Below are positions 11,899 to 26,333 of a DNA stretch of 64,000 nucleotides, piece after piece. Source of the stretch: Bryobacterales bacterium (GTDB taxonomy: Bacteria > Acidobacteriota > Terriglobia > Bryobacterales > UBA6623); contig JAJDTX010000150.1 in NCBI GenBank assembly GCA_022826925.1, positions 62,001 through 126,000 on the forward strand. Reading direction: 5' to 3'. Position numbers and translations under genes: made by a program. How positions within the stretch are numbered: position 1 is the stretch's first letter; every line of letters starts with the position of its first letter. The notes under the pieces are model-generated. The model was not told the DNA's origin and did not search any database. It saw nothing but the letters and a program-made list of their open reading frames with translations.

Positions 11899-13239
11899 AT
11901 GACCATGTCCCGCAAGATTGACCGACGAGCGTTCCTATACGGCCTCGGGGGGGCCTCGCTGGCGCTGCCGGTCTTGGATGCCATGGGAGCCGAAGTGGCC
12001 GAGCAGATCCCGCGCCGGTTCTGCGCCTTGTACACGGCCAACGGGATGGCCTTGCCGCGAACCGAAAACGGCATCGACGAATGGAGCTGGTTCCCGACTG
12101 CCGAGCGCGAAGGCGAGTTCGTCTTCGGCCGCTCGACCGAGCCGCTGAGCGAGTTTCGGCAAAAGCTGAGCTTCATGGGCGGGCTGTACCATCCCAGCGG
12201 CCCCAAAGCTGACCCGCACACCTGCTCGGACATGTGGCTGACCGGCGCCCCGCTGCACAACCCGAAGCCGGGAACCTATAACACCGTCGCCCTCGACCAA
12301 GTGGTGGCGCAGCACACCAAGCAGCACTGCCGCCAGCCCTCGCTGGTGCTTTCCATCGACGCTGGCACGGGCTACCTCTCACGCACGGGGACGATCTCCT
12401 ACAACCTCGAAGGTCGGCCAATCCCGGCCGAGAACAATCCCCGCCGTGTCTTCAACCGCCTGTTCCGCGGCGACCGCGAATCCATGGAATCCGAGCGCGT
12501 GCGCCTCCAGCGCCGCATCAAGCTCGTCGATGCCGTGGCAGAGAGCGCGCGTTCGCTGGACCGCCAGCTGGGAAATTCCGACCGGCAGAAGATGGACCAG
12601 TACCTGACCTCGCTGGACGAACTCGAGTCACGCATGATCGCGTCCGAGCGCTGGATCGACATCCCGCTGAAGCAGCAGGACTACTCGCACTTGAACCTCG
12701 ACGCCGCACCAGGGGGCGAGCCGGCCGAGTACTACCAAACCATGTTCGATCTGATCGCGCTGGCCTTCGATGCGGATATCACCCGGTCGGTAGCGTTCAT
12801 GCTCAATCGCGAGGACGGCATGGGGATCAGCGACACGTTCCCGCTGAAGCTCGGCCTGTCGGCTACCCACCACAAGCTGTCACACGCGACGGACAAACAC
12901 GGCCAAGGGCAATTCGCCAAGTACGACCTCTTCCTGAGCCAGCAGCTCGCACACTTCTTCCGCAGGATGGAGAGCTATCGCGACAGCGAGGGCACTGTGC
13001 TGGACAACACCATCGTGCTGTATGGCAGTGGTGCAAGCACGACTCACACGTCGCTCAACTTGCCGACGTTGCTGGTCGGCGGCGCCAATATGGGCCTGCG
13101 CCACGGCGCGTATTGGCGGGACGGCGAGACGCGCATGTCGAACATGTATCTCAGCATTCTGCACTCCATGGGGATCGGCGTGGAATCGTTCGCCGACAGC
13201 ACCTCCACGCTGAGCAATTCGATCTTCAGCCGCGTCTAG
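11899..13239 (+). CDS. DUF1552 domain protein, Tat-exported
   Basis: A 446-residue protein starting with a twin-arginine signal ([22 protein letters not shown]). The body matches DUF1552: [14 protein letters not shown], a [10 protein letters not shown] segment, [11 protein letters not shown] and [12 protein letters not shown], and it is related in fold to the DUF1501/sulfatase-like proteins. DUF1552 genes almost always follow DUF1592 genes in Planctomycetes, Acidobacteria and Myxobacteria, as here, so the two probably work together outside the cytoplasm. Substrate and reaction are not known. ATG 11899 ([10 protein letters not shown]) or ATG 11905 could be used. Confidence 0.85.
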
Positions 13240-15893: not shown

Positions 15894-16754
15894 CTAGCCC
15901 TGGAGCTGGTCGATCTCGTCCTTCAAGTAGGCGATCGACTCCGTGACTATCCTCTCCGCGCCGGGCGAGAAGTCGAAGACCTCCATGGACACCCAGCCTT
16001 CGAAGTCGCGGTCCGCGGCCACCTGAAGCACCGGCTTGAAGTCGTAGCCGCCCCCTCTGCGCGGATAGCTGCCGTCCAGTTCGTTGACGTGGATGTGGCG
16101 GATCTTCGACCAGTGCTTGGACACCAGCTCGGCGTGAGGCCGCTCCTCTTCGATCGCATTGTGCGAATCGAACATGGTCTGGACCATGGCGCTTCCGATC
16201 TCATCGACGATTTCCGCCGCGCGATCCAGCGAGATGATGACATCGCACTGGTCCGTGGGCAGCGCCTCGACACACAAGGTCACCCCAGATGCCTCAAGGT
16301 CCGCCACGATCGAGCGCACGCCCTCGATGAAGTTGGCCTCGGCCTGCGCCCGTGTCAGCCCGCCTGTGGTCCTTCTCTGGACAGGCGAGCCGAACACCAT
16401 GACCCCACCGGTAGCGCCTTCCGGGCGCAGTTCGGCGCACAGCTCGACCAGCCCGCGCACGTATTCCCAGCTGCGTCGCCGCACAGTCTCGTCCGGCGTA
16501 GTGACATGCAACCCCTCCGGACCGACCGTAAGCCAGTGCAAGCCAACGAATGCGAGCCCCTCGGAGACGATGATGTCACGAACCTCGCTCCTACGCTCGG
16601 CAGGCAGCCTCGTCGCGTCCTGCATCAGCGTGAACGGGGCAACCTCAATACCGGTCCATCCCGCGCGGCGCATCGAGCGGCACGAATCCGCGAAGTCGGT
16701 GTCGCCATAGAGTTCGTTGCAGACCGAAAGCTTGAAGTCCTTTGCAGTTTTCAC
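15894..16754 (-). CDS. Sugar phosphate isomerase/epimerase-like TIM-barrel protein
   Basis: Cytosolic 286-residue protein of the AP-endonuclease-2/xylose-isomerase-like superfamily. Metal-binding positions can be picked out in order: Glu in CVEALPTDQ, Asp in QTMFDSHN, His in IRHIHVNE and Glu in VSMEVFDF, the Glu-Asp-His-Glu pattern of tagatose/ketose 3-epimerases. The substrate cannot be told; inosose, hydroxypyruvate or ketose derivatives are typical. It lies 115 bp downstream of the Cache-SBP gene on the same strand and may share its transcript, hinting that the bound ligand is its substrate. Confidence 0.8.
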   Translation of the reverse strand: MKTAKDFKLSVCNELYGDTDFADSCRSMRRAGWTGIEVAPFTLMQDATRLPAERRSEVRDIIVSEGLAFVGLHWLTVGPEGLHVTTPDETVRRRSWEYVRGLVELCAELRPEGATGGVMVFGSPVQRRTTGGLTRAQAEANFIEGVRSIVADLEASGVTLCVEALPTDQCDVIISLDRAAEIVDEIGSAMVQTMFDSHNAIEEERPHAELVSKHWSKIRHIHVNELDGSYPRRGGGYDFKPVLQVAADRDFEGWVSMEVFDFSPGAERIVTESIAYLKDEIDQLQG

Positions 16755-16869: not shown

Positions 16870-19800
16870 CTACTCGCGACGGGTCCAAGCCTCGATGTTC
16901 CAGAGATCGGAGTCCCAACCATTCACCTGGAAGCCCTCAATGTCATTCCCGTAGGCCGCGACGGATCCGCGGTGGATCAGCGGGATGGTCGCGTAGCTCT
17001 GTACGAGCAAGTCGTTCAGGGCGATCGCGATCTGCTGGCGCTTGTCTGGGTCGAAGGTAATTCTCAGCTCGCGATGGAGGCGGTCGAATTCATCGGAGCT
17101 AAAGCGCTCCGAGTTGCTGCCGCGGAACGAGTTGGCCGCTCGTGCGATCTCGCCTGAGGTCCACGATACGAGATAGCCCTCCGCGTCCGAGCTACTGCCC
17201 CCCGTTGTGTACATCTGGACGTCTGCATAGAACTTTCCGGCTGTGTCCGAACTGTTGATGTCATCGCCGAAGAATACGGACGCGTTGATGTGCTTCAGCT
17301 CGGTCTCCACGCCGATTTCCGCCCACCATGCCTTGATGTGCTCTTGGGTGGCTTGGCGAACTGCGTTAGTCGAGGTCTGGAGCAGGACCTTGAGCGGGAC
17401 TCCGTCGCGTTCCCTTACGCCATCGCCATCTGAGTCCATGATGCCGGCGTCATCGAGAATCGCGTTGGCCAATTCGATGTTCTGCACCAGGCATTCGTCG
17501 TTGTTGCTCGAGGCCTGGCCAGGTACCGGCCAGACGTTGCACGTGGGGCGGCCCCCCAGGTCGCCGTAGCCGACCCGCACGAGCGTGCTGCGGTCGATCG
17601 CCAGCGACAGCGCCCGGCCTACGACCGGATCAGTCAGGAACGGGTGGGGGTTCGTGCCGTCTGCGTACTCGGACCGGAGGGCACCCAAGCCCGGATCCGG
17701 ATTGGTTTGATTCAGAATCAGCCGCTCGACGTTCGTGGAGAATCCCGAGACGACAACTCCGCTCCCCCCGGCCGCGATCGCGGCTAGGGTTTCGGGATCG
17801 ACTTGGAGGTTCCAGGCATAGTCGGCCTCGTCCAGCTCGAGAACGGACCTTGCCGCTTGAACCGCGTCGCCTCCCCCCTGCAGGACGATTTCCCGGAAGT
17901 ACGGTTGCCCGACTCCGGCGCCACGGTACTGCGGATTGAACTCGTAGCGGACGGATTCACCGGCGCGGTAGTCTGCCGCGATGTACGGACCCGTGCCGAG
18001 CGGAATTCGATTCGCGTCGCTGCACGCTACGCCCGCGTCCAAGCAGTCGGCGAACTGGGATGCCTGGAGTACCGGACTCTGAATGGATACGAACGGCGAG
18101 AAGGGGAACGCGACCGGGCCGTCAAACACGATGGTTACGGTGCGCTCGTCAACCGCCTCGACGGACGCAACGCGATCGAAGCGCGAAGTGCGCGCACAGT
18201 CCACGCTGCTGGCAGTGCAGTACCGCCACGTAGACACCACGTCATGCGCCGTAAACGGCGTGCCGTCCGACCAAACCACATCGTCACGGAGATTCCAAGT
18301 GACGCTCGTGCGATCCTCCGGGATTCCGCCGTTGGCGACCGAGGGGATACGCACCGCAAGCGCGGGAATCAACGTTCCGTCCGGATCGTACTCAGCCAGC
18401 GGCTCAATCACCAGCGAGGCGGCCTCGGCGTCCTTCGTCCCCCTGGAGAGGTAGGGGTTGAGAGTCGTTGGCGCTTGCCATTGGACCAGAGTCGCAGTGT
18501 CGCCTTGCCCCGCGGTCTGCATGCCTCCGCCGGGCGCTCCTGTTCCTGGATCGGCTCCTTCTGAAGGCAGGACCGCGGCCGGGCGGTAGTCCGGGTAGTA
18601 TCCGGCACCGACTAGGATCGGCAGCCCCTGTGCCAGCACCCGCTTGACGAACGTCACCTTGCGCTCCGGCATCTTCGTGGAGGGGTTCCGGGCCGTGTAG
18701 TGGAGCAAGGCTTCGCCGAACGCGTCGCCCACGCTCACCCTGTCCTGGCCTCCGGCGGGACTCAGCTCGGATGCGCGCATGCCGGACCGGCTGCCGCCGC
18801 GATCGCCCGAAAACAGCGTGTTGCCGTGCATGTCGACGCCGAACACGTAGATCGAATCGCTCTTCCAGCGCGGATCGGATTCCAGCGTGGCCCCGGCGAA
18901 GTACCCCTGGGATTCGACTTCGAACGCCGCGCATCGAACGAATTCCCTGAGTCTCTGCTCGCTCGGATCAGCCTCCAGCGCTGCCGCGTTGACTTCGCCG
19001 ACCCCGCTGGGGCACGTGCCAGGCAGGTCGTGCAGGTAGATCCCGGCCCCGACCGCGGCGCGGCGCCCGTTCCAGTCCACCTCTACGACGTAAGAGCTCT
19101 TCGGCTCTGATCTTCCCGCGCTGAAGTTGGTGAAGGCGTAGTGCAGCCATCCCTCATCCACGTCTCGCAACACGCGGTGCAGCTCGTAGTAGTAGTCAGT
19201 CCCGAAATTATCCACGAGCTCCCGCGAGGCTCCTTCCCGAAAGGGCTCCGGAGGGAACACCGCAGTGCCCGAGATGAAGCTCTCGGGGGTCGGCGCAAGG
19301 AAGTTGACAAAGACGTAGTAGAGGTCGTCGTCGTGACGCCACCGCTCGTCGTTGTGAAAGGCCCGGTATGCCTCCTCCTCGCCGTGCAGCTCAATGTACT
19401 CCGCCGCGCACCGTACGAACGCCTGAAGGTCCCGCCGCGTGCGGATCCCGCGAGCCGTGACGCGGTTGTCGTCGCAGGAGGGTTCTGGGACTGCCGGTGC
19501 GGAGCCCAGCTCGTAGCCCGCGCCCAAGACGAGTGGCACGCCGTGCGAGACGACGCGCTTGAGCATTCCGACCTTGGGCTGCATCCTCCCCGTCCGCGGA
19601 TTGCGGCTCCGGTAGTACGCCAAGGCCTCGCCGAACGCATCTCCGACAGCGACCATGTCGCGTCCGCCGAACTGGTCCGTCGGGTCGCTCTTGCCGCCGA
19701 ATTCGTGGAGCGCCTTACCGTTGATCCGCACCCCGTTGCCGGTTAGGACCTGGTTCCCCTCCAAGTCCATCGCGAATACGTAGCTGGAGCCGTGGCGCCA

Positions 19801-20478
19801 CCGCGAGCTCGTTTCGAGCTCCTCTCGCGCGAAGTAGCCCTTCTCCTCCAGCAACATTGCGGCGCAGCGCACGAACGCCTCTAGCTTGGTCTCGCTCGGA
19901 GCGGCCGCCAAGTCGGCCGCATTCACTTCGTCGGAGCTGCAGGTGCCGGGCAGGTCGGGAGCATAGATGCCGGAGCCGACCACGGCGCGCTGGCCGTCCC
20001 AGTCCACCTCGCCCAGATACGAACTCTTGGGCTGTTGCGTCCCCGAGGACGGGTTCCCGCTCCAGTAATACATCCAGCCGGAATCGACAAGCCCCAGCAT
20101 CCGAAAGGACTCGGAATAGTAATCGGTTCCAAACGCGTCGATATAGGTGCCCCAGACGTCGCCCTCCCTGGACGGATCGCGCGCGTAAACGTAGACGAGC
20201 GCTTCATCTGCGGACGGCGCAACCTGATCGACAAACAGGTAGATCGGGCCGTGCTTCCAGCGCTCGTCCTCATTGAACGCTCGCCGGGCCTCGGCGGTGC
20301 CGTGCTCAGCCAAGTACTCCGCCGCGCACCGAACGAACGCCTGGACGTCACTCGTCGTGCGGACGGCGCTCGCGCTGATTTGATGCTCCGCGCAACTGAC
20401 CGGGTCGTTCGCGCGCGCGGGCAGCGTCGCGATCGGCACGAGGACGGCTAGCAGGAGGAACTTGGTTGGTCGCATCAC
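16870..20478 (-). CDS. Four tandem Cache-like modules fused to an SBP_bac_5 solute-binding protein
   Basis: A secreted protein of 1202 residues. A signal peptide covers 1-23 (ending LPARA). Four Cache-like modules follow in an A-B-A-B pattern: A1 about 29-179, B1 180-325, A2 335-488, B2 489-630. Each starts with FVRCAA and contains a Y(V/L)F beta-strand segment; A modules share FGTDYY and KSSY, B modules share GDAFGEAL and KRV. Each module also has a second Cys in its linker (29/51, 180/205, 335/357, 489/516), probably disulfides. Residues about 655-1202 are a dipeptide/oligopeptide-type binding protein (WSDGTPFTAHDVVSTWRY, LSLAIDRSTLVRVGYGDL). No permease or ATPase lies nearby. Cache modules normally sense small molecules in chemoreceptors and kinases, so a periplasmic sensor or scavenger is inferred. 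Confidence 0.85.
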   Translation of the reverse strand: MMRPTKFLLLAVLVPIATLPARANDPVSCAEHQISASAVRTTSDVQAFVRCAAEYLAEHGTAEARRAFNEDERWKHGPIYLFVDQVAPSADEALVYVYARDPSREGDVWGTYIDAFGTDYYSESFRMLGLVDSGWMYYWSGNPSSGTQQPKSSYLGEVDWDGQRAVVGSGIYAPDLPGTCSSDEVNAADLAAAPSETKLEAFVRCAAMLLEEKGYFAREELETSSRWRHGSSYVFAMDLEGNQVLTGNGVRINGKALHEFGGKSDPTDQFGGRDMVAVGDAFGEALAYYRSRNPRTGRMQPKVGMLKRVVSHGVPLVLGAGYELGSAPAVPEPSCDDNRVTARGIRTRRDLQAFVRCAAEYIELHGEEEAYRAFHNDERWRHDDDLYYVFVNFLAPTPESFISGTAVFPPEPFREGASRELVDNFGTDYYYELHRVLRDVDEGWLHYAFTNFSAGRSEPKSSYVVEVDWNGRRAAVGAGIYLHDLPGTCPSGVGEVNAAALEADPSEQRLREFVRCAAFEVESQGYFAGATLESDPRWKSDSIYVFGVDMHGNTLFSGDRGGSRSGMRASELSPAGGQDRVSVGDAFGEALLHYTARNPSTKMPERKVTFVKRVLAQGLPILVGAGYYPDYRPAAVLPSEGADPGTGAPGGGMQTAGQGDTATLVQWQAPTTLNPYLSRGTKDAEAASLVIEPLAEYDPDGTLIPALAVRIPSVANGGIPEDRTSVTWNLRDDVVWSDGTPFTAHDVVSTWRYCTASSVDCARTSRFDRVASVEAVDERTVTIVFDGPVAFPFSPFVSIQSPVLQASQFADCLDAGVACSDANRIPLGTGPYIAADYRAGESVRYEFNPQYRGAGVGQPYFREIVLQGGGDAVQAARSVLELDEADYAWNLQVDPETLAAIAAGGSGVVVSGFSTNVERLILNQTNPDPGLGALRSEYADGTNPHPFLTDPVVGRALSLAIDRSTLVRVGYGDLGGRPTCNVWPVPGQASSNNDECLVQNIELANAILDDAGIMDSDGDGVRERDGVPLKVLLQTSTNAVRQATQEHIKAWWAEIGVETELKHINASVFFGDDINSSDTAGKFYADVQMYTTGGSSSDAEGYLVSWTSGEIARAANSFRGSNSERFSSDEFDRLHRELRITFDPDKRQQIAIALNDLLVQSYATIPLIHRGSVAAYGNDIEGFQVNGWDSDLWNIEAWTRRE

Positions 20479-20873: not shown

Positions 20874-21758
20874 ATGCAATCCAACTTCACACGCAGGAAG
20901 TTCGCCCGCCTCGCTGTCGGCTCGGGAGCCGGCCTTGCCGGAGCTGCTGTGCTTACCGCCCACGACAGAATGACCTCCAAGTTTTCCGGGGTGACCGTCG
21001 GCGCGCAGAGTTACAGCTTCCGGGATCGACCCCTGGACGAAGCGATCGCAGCGATGAAGCAAATCCGCATCGGCTCTTGCGAACTGTGGAGCGGCCACAC
21101 CGAGCCGCTGCGCGAACTCCGCAGGGATCGCGAGAAGCTGCGCGCTTTCCGCCTTGAGACACCCCTGAGCCACTACGAGGAAATCGGCGAGAGCTTCCAC
21201 GCGGCCGGGATCGAGCTGAACTCGTTCAACTACAGCTTCCGAGACCACTTCACTGACGAAGAGATCGCCCGGGGCTTCGAGATGGCCAAGGCCATGGGCG
21301 CCAAGGCGCTCACCGCGTCCGGCACGGTCAGCGTCGCCGGGCGCGTCAATGCCCACGCCCAGCGGTACGGCATGAAAGTGGGCATGCACAACCATTCCCG
21401 CATCAGGGAAAACGAGTACGCCACGCCGGACGACTTCGCGGCCGCGTCCAAGGGCAACAGCCACATCGGGGTTAACCTGGACATCGGCCACTTCGTCGCC
21501 GCCGGCTTCGACCCGGTCGACTACATCAAGCGGCACCACGCGCAGATCGTCGCCCTTCACATCAAGGACCGCAAGCGGGACCAAGGCGAGAACACGCCGT
21601 TCGGAGAGGGCGACACCCCGATCCGCGAGACGCTCGCCCTGCTGCGCGACAACAGCTACGACATCCCCGCTAACATCGAGTACGAGTACAAGGGCGGCGA
21701 CACCGTAGAGGAAGTCAAGAAGTGCTTCGATTACTGCAAGCGGGCCTTGGCTTCGTAA
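20874..21758 (+). CDS. Tat-exported sugar phosphate isomerase/epimerase-like protein
   Basis: A 294-residue TIM-barrel of the same superfamily as the gene at 15894, but with a twin-arginine signal peptide at the N-terminus (TRRKFARLAVGSGAGLAGAAVL), so it should act in the periplasm. Metal-binding candidates include His in VGMHNHSR, Asp in GVNLDIGHF, His in IVALHIKDR and Glu in NIEYEYKG. GAGGAG stands about eight bases before ATG 20874. The 5' region contains the right arm of the inverted-repeat element, only 30 bp upstream. Substrate unknown; exported members are common in Planctomycetes and Acidobacteria. Confidence 0.82.
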   Translation: MQSNFTRRKFARLAVGSGAGLAGAAVLTAHDRMTSKFSGVTVGAQSYSFRDRPLDEAIAAMKQIRIGSCELWSGHTEPLRELRRDREKLRAFRLETPLSHYEEIGESFHAAGIELNSFNYSFRDHFTDEEIARGFEMAKAMGAKALTASGTVSVAGRVNAHAQRYGMKVGMHNHSRIRENEYATPDDFAAASKGNSHIGVNLDIGHFVAAGFDPVDYIKRHHAQIVALHIKDRKRDQGENTPFGEGDTPIRETLALLRDNSYDIPANIEYEYKGGDTVEEVKKCFDYCKRALAS

Positions 21759-23252: not shown

Positions 23253-26200
23253 GTGATCGTGCGAGTTCCAGCCTCACTGCTGCACATGTTGCTCGCGGGC
23301 GCGGCCCTGAGCCCGCTGGCGGGGGCGACCGTGCAGTTCAACCGCGACATTCGCCCGATCCTGTCCGAGAACTGCTTTGCCTGCCACGGCCCGGACGCGG
23401 CCAAGCGCATGACATCCTTCCGTCTAGACAACGAACTGGGGCCGGCAACGGTGCTCAGCGGAGGGCGCAAGGCCATCGTGCCCGGCGATCCGGGCAGCAG
23501 CGAGTTGTTCCTGCGCGTGTCGGCTTCAGACCCGACCAGGCGCATGCCCCCGGCGGCCATGGGGCATGACCCGCTCGCGGACCGCGAGATCGAACTGCTG
23601 CGCCAGTGGATCGCCGAGGGTGCCCAGTGGCAGGGGCACTGGGCGTTTCTGCCGCCGCAGCGGCCCGCCGTGCCTGCTGCCGAGCACCCCGGCTGGCCTG
23701 TCAACCCCGTCGACAGCTTCGTCCTGCACCGCATGCGCGCCGAGGGCTTGGAGCCGTCGACACCGGCATCCAAGGAAGCTCTGATCCGCCGGGCAAGCCT
23801 GGACCTGACAGGCATGCCCCCAGAACTCAGCGACATTGACGCCTTCCTGGCAGACCACTCTCCGGGTGCCTACGAGACCGTGGTGGACCGGCTCCTGGCG
23901 TCGCCCCGCTATGCGGAACGGATGGCGATTCGCTGGCTCGACGCCGCGCGCTACGCCGACACGAACGGCTACCAGACCGACGCCGAACGCGACATGTGGC
24001 GGTGGCGCGACTGGGTCATCGACGCCTTCGATTCCAACAAGCCGTTCGACGAATTCACCATCGAGCAGATCGCGGGCGACATGCTTCCGAACGCCCGCTT
24101 AGACCAAATCATCGCGACTGGCTTCAATCGCAATCACCGAGGCAACGGCGAGGGCGGCATCGTCGACGCTGAGTACGCGGTGGAATACGTGGTGGACCGC
24201 GTCGACACAACCTCGACCGTATGGATGGGGCTGACGCTCGGCTGCGCTCGCTGCCACGACCACAAGTACGACCCGTTCACCCAGAAGGAGTACTACGAGC
24301 TGTTCGCTTATTTCAACAACGTGCCGGAGAAGGGGAAAGCGTTCAAGTACGGCAATTCCCCGCCCTTCGTCAAGGCCCCGACTGGCGACCAGCAGGCCAC
24401 CTTGGCCCGGATGGACACAGATCTGGCCGCCGTGCGCGCCGACCGAGACCGTGTCGAGGAACGCCACGAGAGTGAGCGGCCTGAGTGGGAGCGAGGCATT
24501 GCGAGCGAACCCACCGAGTGGATCGACGGGCGCGACCTCACGCTTGCGTTCCCGGAGGGCCACGATCTGCCAAGGCCCACCGAGCGCGCATTCGAGCCCG
24601 GCAGCTTCGCCGAACTGGGCGATCAGGCCGATTTCGGCTTTCGCGACCGCTTCAGCGTCACTGCGTGGATTCGCCCGGAAGACCCGAACGGGACGATCGT
24701 GTCGAGGACCAAGCACGTATTGCCGGAAGATGACACCCAGTCCAACCCCGGCTGGGGCCTGTACCTCAAGGACGGAAAGCTGCAGGTCAACCTGGTCAAC
24801 CGCTGGCTGGACGACTGCCTGCGGCTGGAAACGGTCCAGCCCGTCGCTCTCGGCAAGTGGCAGCAGGTGGGATTCACCTATGACGGCACGCGGCTGGCCT
24901 CGGGAGTCCGCATCTTCATCGACGGGGAATCGGTCGATCTCAACGTCATCCGCGATGAGATGAACCAGCAGATCAGCTCGAAGGAGCCTCTGCGGGTAGG
25001 TCGCGGCCTGGGGCTCGACTACCGGGGCAAGCTGCGCCGCCTGTTAGTCTACGGCCGCGCGTTGACCCTAGAAGAGATGCGCATCGCGGCTGAAGAGCGC
25101 AGCCTTGACCAGATCGCCGCCATCCCGGCAGCCGACCGCACGCCGACCCAGTCTCTGAAGCTCGAGCAGGCCTATCGCGAGGCGCTCGGCCCGGCAGACC
25201 TGACGGCCTTGGCGGCGCGGATCCGGGACTTGGAGCGCGAGCGCGCGCAGTACTTCGACGCGGTGCCCACCGTGATGGTCATGCAGGAGGCATCGCCCCG
25301 GCGCAAGACCTTCCGCCTGGATCGAGGGGCATACGACGCACCCGCCGAGCAGGTGCAGCCGGGTCTGCCCGCGGCCCTGTCACCCGCAGATCCGGGCGAC
25401 AGGCTGGACTTCGCCCGCTGGCTGACCTCCCGCGACAATCCCCTGACAGCGCGCGTCACCGTCAACCGCGTCTGGCAGATGCTCTGGGGCGCTGGCATTG
25501 TCGAGACGGTCGAAGACTTCGGATCGCAAGGTGAATGGCCCACCCACCCCGAATTGCTGGACTGGCTGGCAGTGGACTTCATGGAATCCGGCTGGGACAT
25601 GAAGGCCTTGGTCAAGACGATTGTGATGAGCGCGGCTTATCGCCAGTCATCCCGGCTGCGCCAAGGCGAGGTCGGACCGGATCCGGACAACCGGCTGCTG
25701 GCCCGCGGTCCTCGCCTGCGCCTGCCCGCGGAGTCTGTCCGCGACCTCAGCCTCGCCGTCTCGGGCCTGTTGGTCGAAGGGTTGGGCGGCCCCTCGGTCC
25801 GTCCCTACCAGCCTGCCGGTCTATGGACCGAGCTGGCCGGCGGAGCCGACTACGATGTCGGCAGCGGAGCCGACCTGTACCGCCGGAGCCTCTACACCTT
25901 CTGGAAGCGAGCCGTGCCTCCGCCATCGATGATGCTGTTCGATTCCGCCGGGCGGGAAGCTTGCACGGTGCGCAGCGTACGCACGAATACTCCCTTGCAA
26001 GCTCTGAACCGCATGAATGACGCCGCCTACATGGAGGCATCGAAGGCGCTCGCCGGCAGGGCGCTGCGCGAAGCAGGCGACGCGCGCGACCAGCGCTTGG
26101 GCTACATGTTCCGCTTGGCGACCTCGCGGCACCCCAGCGAGCGCGAGACGCAGGTCTTGTCGTCCGGATTCAACCACCATTTGGATCGCTTCCGCAGCGA

Positions 26201-26333
26201 TCCCAAGGCGGCGACCGCGTTGTTGGGAGAGCAACCGAAGCACCCCGCCGAAGTCTCGCAACCCGAAGCTGCGGCATACACGATGATGGCCAGCTTGGTG
26301 CTCAACCTAGACGAGACGATCACGCGAGAGTAG
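23253..26333 (+). CDS. PSD1-type planctomycete cytochrome C / DUF1549 / LamG / DUF1553 protein
   Basis: A secreted heme protein of 1026 residues. After a signal peptide (LHMLLAGAALSPLAGA) comes the PSC1-type motif CFACHGPD at 41-48. DUF1549 covers about 145-360 (TNGYQTDAERDMWRWRDWVI) and includes a second motif CARCHDHKYDPF from residue 331. A LamG-like domain is at about 450-610 (RFSVTAWIRPED, GVRIFIDGESVDL). DUF1553 covers about 725-995 (NPLTARVTVNRVWQ, WPTHPELLDWLAVDFM). Such proteins are paired with DUF1501 proteins, as here after one cupin gene. The function is unsettled; polymer breakdown is inferred. GTG 23253 follows a TATAAT by only five bases. Confidence 0.87.
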   Translation: MIVRVPASLLHMLLAGAALSPLAGATVQFNRDIRPILSENCFACHGPDAAKRMTSFRLDNELGPATVLSGGRKAIVPGDPGSSELFLRVSASDPTRRMPPAAMGHDPLADREIELLRQWIAEGAQWQGHWAFLPPQRPAVPAAEHPGWPVNPVDSFVLHRMRAEGLEPSTPASKEALIRRASLDLTGMPPELSDIDAFLADHSPGAYETVVDRLLASPRYAERMAIRWLDAARYADTNGYQTDAERDMWRWRDWVIDAFDSNKPFDEFTIEQIAGDMLPNARLDQIIATGFNRNHRGNGEGGIVDAEYAVEYVVDRVDTTSTVWMGLTLGCARCHDHKYDPFTQKEYYELFAYFNNVPEKGKAFKYGNSPPFVKAPTGDQQATLARMDTDLAAVRADRDRVEERHESERPEWERGIASEPTEWIDGRDLTLAFPEGHDLPRPTERAFEPGSFAELGDQADFGFRDRFSVTAWIRPEDPNGTIVSRTKHVLPEDDTQSNPGWGLYLKDGKLQVNLVNRWLDDCLRLETVQPVALGKWQQVGFTYDGTRLASGVRIFIDGESVDLNVIRDEMNQQISSKEPLRVGRGLGLDYRGKLRRLLVYGRALTLEEMRIAAEERSLDQIAAIPAADRTPTQSLKLEQAYREALGPADLTALAARIRDLERERAQYFDAVPTVMVMQEASPRRKTFRLDRGAYDAPAEQVQPGLPAALSPADPGDRLDFARWLTSRDNPLTARVTVNRVWQMLWGAGIVETVEDFGSQGEWPTHPELLDWLAVDFMESGWDMKALVKTIVMSAAYRQSSRLRQGEVGPDPDNRLLARGPRLRLPAESVRDLSLAVSGLLVEGLGGPSVRPYQPAGLWTELAGGADYDVGSGADLYRRSLYTFWKRAVPPPSMMLFDSAGREACTVRSVRTNTPLQALNRMNDAAYMEASKALAGRALREAGDARDQRLGYMFRLATSRHPSERETQVLSSGFNHHLDRFRSDPKAATALLGEQPKHPAEVSQPEAAAYTMMASLVLNLDETITRE

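Follow-up and report, generated by a model that had tools for sequence, protein, structure and literature searches.

Family 5 substrate-binding proteins (SBPs) serve the Opp/Dpp importers of the ATP-binding cassette (ABC) type, and in the LuxP-LuxQ system an SBP is docked on a sensor of the Cache clan, LuxQ. Known Cache domains are located mainly in transmembrane chemoreceptors, kinases or cyclases (PMC4822843). Here we describe a gene that unites Cache modules with a family 5 SBP in a single polypeptide, found in a 64,000 nucleotide stretch, hereafter the window, of a Bryobacterales bacterium (assembly GCA_022826925.1, contig JAJDTX010000150.1, positions 62,001 to 126,000). Its product, which we call the Cache-SBP protein, begins with a predicted signal peptide, continues with an A-B-A-B series of four Cache_2-type modules (A1, B1, A2, B2) and ends, after a linker, in a complete SBP_bac_5 domain (Table 1). 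The reading we prefer, with a probability of roughly 0.45, is that of a soluble, exported, multivalent protein with five binding sites that captures, buffers or presents solutes outside the cytoplasm.

The open reading frame (ORF), on the minus strand (a detail absent from the initial annotation of the locus), is uninterrupted and starts at a GTG codon with an ATG as the next. Searched whole against Pfam, the 1202 residue protein matches SBP_bac_5 (PF00496) above the gathering cut-off at E 3.7e-55 over residues 718-1109, near the full length of the profile (188 bits, profile positions 11-363 of 368), as well as dCache_2 in two stretches (E 7.9e-12, 45.4 bits against a cut-off of 26.5) and sCache_2 (E 4.6e-10, 40.1 bits against 25). 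Its 14 cysteines fall into seven close pairs (29/51, 180/205, 335/357, 489/516, 754/761, 812/819, 980/996), one in each Cache module and three in the SBP, a pattern that would fit an oxidising, extracytoplasmic location. By the simple measure of 19-residue mean hydropathy (maximum 1.47) no transmembrane helix is evident past residue 30, and neither hydropathy nor Pfam reveals a membrane output domain. An initial annotation of the locus had proposed both the full SBP_bac_5 protein and the missing output domain, and on both counts it agrees with these results.

Self-comparison reproduces the A-B-A-B order put forward by that annotation: A1B1 and A2B2 are 47% identical over 308 columns (E 5e-94), and identity between single modules is 50% for A1-A2, 45% for B1-B2 and 29% for A1-B1 (E 1.3e-13 for the last pair). 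Common to the modules are F-x2-CAA, RW, Y-x-F, a late K and a late G-x-G, and 36 module sequences taken from the window and eight loci share 13 invariant columns. The whole protein exceeds the Pfam Cache cut-offs and no single module does so alone: B1 falls just under them (2e-5, 24.4 and 24.8 bits), B2 (0.005, 16.5 and 13.7 bits) and A2 (0.14, 11.7 and 11.9 bits) lie below, and A1 has no Pfam Cache match. When the PDB was searched with a 36-row profile built from all modules, the sCache structure 4k08 came first (4.4e-6), followed by 2qhk, 4exo and 5g4y (0.055-0.12), all four being Cache-type chemoreceptor domains, ahead of lysozyme (0.8) and myelin P0 (1). The AlphaFold2 model of B1, the sole module modelled singly, has a predicted local distance difference test score (pLDDT) of 81 and a predicted template modelling score (pTM) of 0.81, and its best four Foldseek matches in the PDB are the sCache chemoreceptor domains 5g4y, 4k08, 4exo and 2qhk (TM 0.57-0.61); from this model B1 is predicted to adopt the PAS-like Cache fold. 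The A modules are counted as Cache because they are homologous to the B modules and a profile made from A modules matches 4k08 at 4.3e-5; they also align to a clear sCache_2 protein with 91.5% probability and E 8.7e-7, in that single comparison. The Cache fold first assigned to residues 29-630 is supported.

To follow the gene among relatives we examined 61 genomes (the source genome, G000, and 60 relatives) and then read the frames. Of the 11 genomes that represent the genus, 8 have uninterrupted frames with four Cache modules and the SBP (G000, G001, G002, where it occurs twice, G003, G005, G007, G009 and G010); in G001 the contig stops within the gene, so that this copy lacks its 5' end. 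A form with two Cache modules occurs in two of three genomes of another genus of the same family (G015 and G017, not G016; open frames of 923 and 960 residues) and in all four genomes examined of a second Acidobacteriota family (873-875 residues). In total, uninterrupted fused frames come from 14 genomes, three genera and two families, and conservation within Acidobacteriota is supported. G006 encodes a four-Cache relative without the SBP (637-residue frame, 59% identical). An A-B profile search of an even draw of 396 Acidobacteriota genomes (E up to 1e-8, no more than five candidates scored per genome) matched 11 of them: the source genome itself, the four from the second family just described, and six others with weak scores (E 2.7e-23 to 7e-9). 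The closest eight records in a contig scan are titled as metagenome-assembled genomes (MAGs) of Bryobacterales or Terriglobia.

Ratios of non-synonymous to synonymous substitution (dN/dS) were obtained by a simple counting method for six pairwise orthologue comparisons, with high dS in the most distant pair. They range between 0.02 and 0.29 for the Cache modules and between 0.11 and 0.18 for the SBP, which is constrained, though not in every comparison the most constrained part; the linker, at 0.19-1.06, had the highest value of the six parts in five of the six comparisons. Every domain is kept by purifying selection.

Several irregular copies accompany the intact ones. In G004 the linker of the Cache-SBP gene is enlarged by about 130 residues, unmatched in Pfam, and it is within this linker that the frame breaks (L009 11877-12360); the enlargement is possibly a module insertion point. 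G084 carries a second, broken copy of the fused gene. G003 has, besides its intact fused gene, a truncated second SBP copy some 7 kb away (378-residue frame, L065 13768-14901), and the two are closest relatives in the SBP tree.

Two trees bear on how the fusion arose. Among the 27 rows of the SBP tree, which include 17 fused and seven unfused sequences, the fused rows form one group (95/100) separate from the unfused, with inner forks resolved in part. The Cache-unit tree holds 39 units drawn from 26 selected proteins. One group (96/95) brings together the first units of the four-Cache fusions and those of other arrays; a separate one (100/99) contains the second units of these fusions and that of G006; and a third (100/97) comprises the units of two-Cache fusions along with the unit fused to SBP_bac_3 in G003. 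By these placements, a single SBP lineage is linked to more than one Cache lineage, and one of the Cache lineages to two SBP families. They suggest module shuffling, with a single SBP lineage attached to two Cache lineages, and an A-B-A-B array older than its union with the SBP. The single internal duplication within this protein that the initial annotation had seen in the repeated A-B unit is not supported by the unit tree, where first and second units stand apart.

The SBP fusions belong to a large, shuffled family of Cache-array proteins, of which the initial annotation makes no mention. Among chosen loci there are arrays of 2, 4, 5 and 6 Cache modules that lack SBP_bac_5 (partial frames counted), and a partner-domain scan of ten chosen proteins found an A-B unit followed by SBP_bac_3 in L070 of G003 (29.8 bits, above the 26.4 cut-off) and in L080 of G014 (23.4 bits, below it), an A-B unit fused to DUF192 in G008 (L071 1985-3364), and, also in G008, fn3 repeats followed by a divergent A-B pair (L076 4455-6458); by eye, L077 3852-5732 of G008 has the same layout. 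We tentatively propose, at somewhat short of even odds, that the Acidobacteriota of this lineage have repurposed Cache sensors as an exported, combinatorial binding toolkit, in which arrays of 2-6 Cache modules freed from membrane signalling would be combined with swapped binding domains of ABC importers (SBP_bac_5, SBP_bac_3) and with other partners to give soluble multi-ligand proteins acting without a dedicated transporter or chemoreceptor. Elsewhere in the source genome (contig C121, L111 7542-8996), a Cache protein has a C-terminus that by eye resembles the start of an autotransporter-type region, and its contig bears a PotABCD-like ABC set. Several adjacent frames in G014 (L079, L080) each encode one A-B pair, which suggests tandem expansion.

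The Cache-SBP protein looks orphaned from a transporter, in line with the initial annotation, which had seen no transporter partner. It is the only SBP_bac_5 match in its own genome, and the six BPD_transp_1 matches above cut-off found there include no permease of the Opp type. Four of the six genes are two pairs adjoining SBP_bac_8-type binding proteins and TOBE-type ATPases, one is ModB next to ModA (both above NCBIfam cut-offs), and one, on a 3.6-kb contig, has the polar-amino-acid permease domain TIGR01726 above cut-off. Searches for OppC_N were negative in all 11 genus members and positive in 2 of 18 genomes of the family (G015, G017); MCPsignal was likewise not found in any of the 11. 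The nearest unfused homologues of the SBP, 48-55% identical, occur at five Actinomycetota loci, four of them titled Acidimicrobiales or Acidimicrobiaceae. At all five an oligo_HPY-type ATPase gene lies upstream and a DppB-type permease gene downstream (Pfam in each), with OppC_N confirmed at the three for which the scan extended to the following gene. G011 has ATPase, SBP and DppB in the same order on a 3,991-base contig, and G007 has an unfused homologue too, located terminally on a contig of 4,743 bases; such short contigs may be binning contaminants, a point checked by guanine-plus-cytosine content.

The gene for the polar-amino-acid-type permease (L113 2125-3237, contig C60 of the source genome) has no visible binding protein on its contig; its interest lies in the SBP_bac_3 domains that accompany some members of the Cache family.

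We favour a role in capture, buffering or presentation because the protein has no membrane output and no Opp/Dpp permease was found for it. After export by way of its signal peptide, as read by eye, the protein would be kept oxidised, probably by seven disulphides, three of them in the SBP and one per Cache module. The five binding units would each hold a small solute of their own, up to five in all, outside the inner membrane, whether in the periplasm or after release, and the protein would raise the local concentration of several solutes or pass them to unlinked acceptors. In evolutionary terms, an SBP lineage whose nearest unfused kin serve Dpp-type ABC importers would have lost its permease link and joined pre-existing Cache arrays, this direction being the presumed one. 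This proposal must be tempered by several points that weigh against it. Export and ligand binding, by Cache modules and SBP alike, are predictions from sequence; annotations of the best SBP relatives (nickel, peptides or sugars) do not single out a ligand, and neighbouring genes give no pointer to a substrate. The SBP is dispensable, given that two of the 11 genus members, G006 and G008, lack any SBP_bac_5 match. The full-length AlphaFold2 model, made from a 15-row alignment, is poor (pLDDT 48, pTM 0.28), and the arrangement of the modules is not readable from it. G015 and G017, which have the two-Cache form, do have OppC_N; they also carry a separate SBP_bac_5 (522-residue frame) that is distant from the fused one (~26 bits). 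Finally, the MAGs are incomplete (93% for the source genome), and in any individual genome a permease may have escaped assembly.

The strongest rival, which we regard as unlikely, is a diffusible co-receptor: once loaded with ligand, the protein would dock, as LuxP does on LuxQ, onto a histidine kinase or cyclase encoded elsewhere, at its extracytoplasmic domain. It would explain a protein without membrane output of its own, and SBPs that activate sensor kinases are an established precedent (PMC11113362); nevertheless, no receptor gene is present among the nine neighbouring ORFs scanned in Pfam (kinases and cyclases were not surveyed genome-wide), and the 11 genomes of the genus yielded no methyl-accepting chemotaxis proteins. 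A chemotaxis reading was dropped on the same MCPsignal result. A host- or community-facing role, in which a released protein binds metabolites of a host or neighbour or mediates adhesion and the Cache array serves recognition outside the cell, seems more doubtful still. The large Cache-array family of this lineage, including one scanned member with fn3, is consistent with it, as is the enrichment of Cache domains in some sponge-associated Thaumarchaeota, for which the authors propose host recognition (PMC7848895); set against this, a sponge origin of the present MAGs would fit the style of their isolate names but found no backing in the papers searched, and no surface anchor was seen in the protein (secretion systems were not searched for).

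Ordinary import, in which the SBP would feed a non-Opp permease encoded elsewhere, with the Cache modules as mere passengers, would account for an SBP domain that is complete and constrained, but all four Cache modules are constrained too, OppC_N was not found in the 11 genomes of the genus, and the six permeases found in the source genome are of other types, five of their genes adjoining binding proteins of other families; we judge it quite improbable. An assembly artefact or chance fusion of two genes, which the initial annotation had named as grounds for withdrawing its reading, could draw on the G004 copy, split into two frames in its enlarged linker, and on the broken second copy of G084. 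Uninterrupted fused frames in 14 genomes stand against it, as does purifying selection on both halves; recurrence across genomes and selection on every module therefore leave it a negligible chance.

Xylose-isomerase-like TIM-barrel genes lie on either side of the Cache-SBP gene (window 15894-16754, minus strand, and 20874-21758, plus strand). Five relatives share these flanks at the syntenic locus, a single side being covered for one of the five, and the flanks do not recur around the other copies compared. A functional tie to the neighbours (sugar-isomerase-like TIM barrels, a GMC oxidoreductase) was dropped on the ground that only the syntenic locus of these five close relatives has the flanks in common. 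The window also contains a DUF1552 (HXXSHH) gene (11899-13239) and a PSCyt1/PSCyt2/PSD1 gene (23253-26333), kinds that are usual in Planctomycetota and in some Acidobacteriota.

Table 1. Parts of the Cache-SBP gene, in window coordinates
Feature	Residues	Position	Strand	Basis
Whole gene (all parts listed below)	1-1202	16870..20478	-	Pfam, orthologues
Predicted signal peptide, Sec type, no lipobox Cys at likely cleavage site	~1-23	20410..20478	-	sequence read by eye
Cache module A1	29-178	19945..20394	-	self-comparison, module profiles
Cache module B1	180-330	19489..19941	-	Pfam, AlphaFold2 model, Foldseek
Cache module A2	335-488	19015..19476	-	self-comparison, module profiles
Cache module B2	489-632	18583..19014	-	self-comparison, Pfam
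Linker	633-664	18487..18582	-	sequence features, dN/dS
SBP_bac_5 domain	665-1202	16873..18486	-	Pfam

The domains of the Cache-SBP protein are each known; their architecture is new. In the open-licence PMC literature we found no account of exported bacterial Cache arrays or of a soluble Cache-SBP fusion, the nearest published remark being the thaumarchaeal enrichment cited above (PMC7848895). If our interpretation is true, Cache and SBP domains can serve a role that is neither membrane sensing nor ABC import, and the Cache-array family is well suited to testing what the Cache pocket does where signalling is impossible. The modules resemble the sCache_2 and dCache_2 sensor domains (4k08, 5g4y, 2qhk/4exo) in the whole-protein profile match above cut-off, in the fold predicted for B1 and in the conserved Y-x-F, K and G-x-G; unlike known Cache sensors, they stand four in a row with a cysteine pair in each and no evident membrane segment, and the usual setting of a transmembrane receptor with an output domain, which is not strictly defining, was not found. 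The SBP domain is a full-length SBP_bac_5 like DppA, OppA, NikA and TM1223, and is 48-55% identical to SBPs of Dpp-type operons in Actinomycetota MAGs, but it differs from those of importers in being fused behind Cache modules, in having no lipobox by eye and in a genus where OppC_N was not found; the cognate Opp/Dpp permease by which an importer component would be recognised was not seen. Should the co-receptor alternative be right, the protein would resemble LuxP-LuxQ in uniting an SBP and Cache-fold partners as one extracytoplasmic unit, with the differences that the join is covalent, that there is no kinase and that the SBP comes from another family. Closest in plan are the Cache and SBP_bac_3 proteins of G003 and G014, which likewise place an A-B Cache unit before an SBP with no output domain in Pfam, and differ in the family of the SBP.

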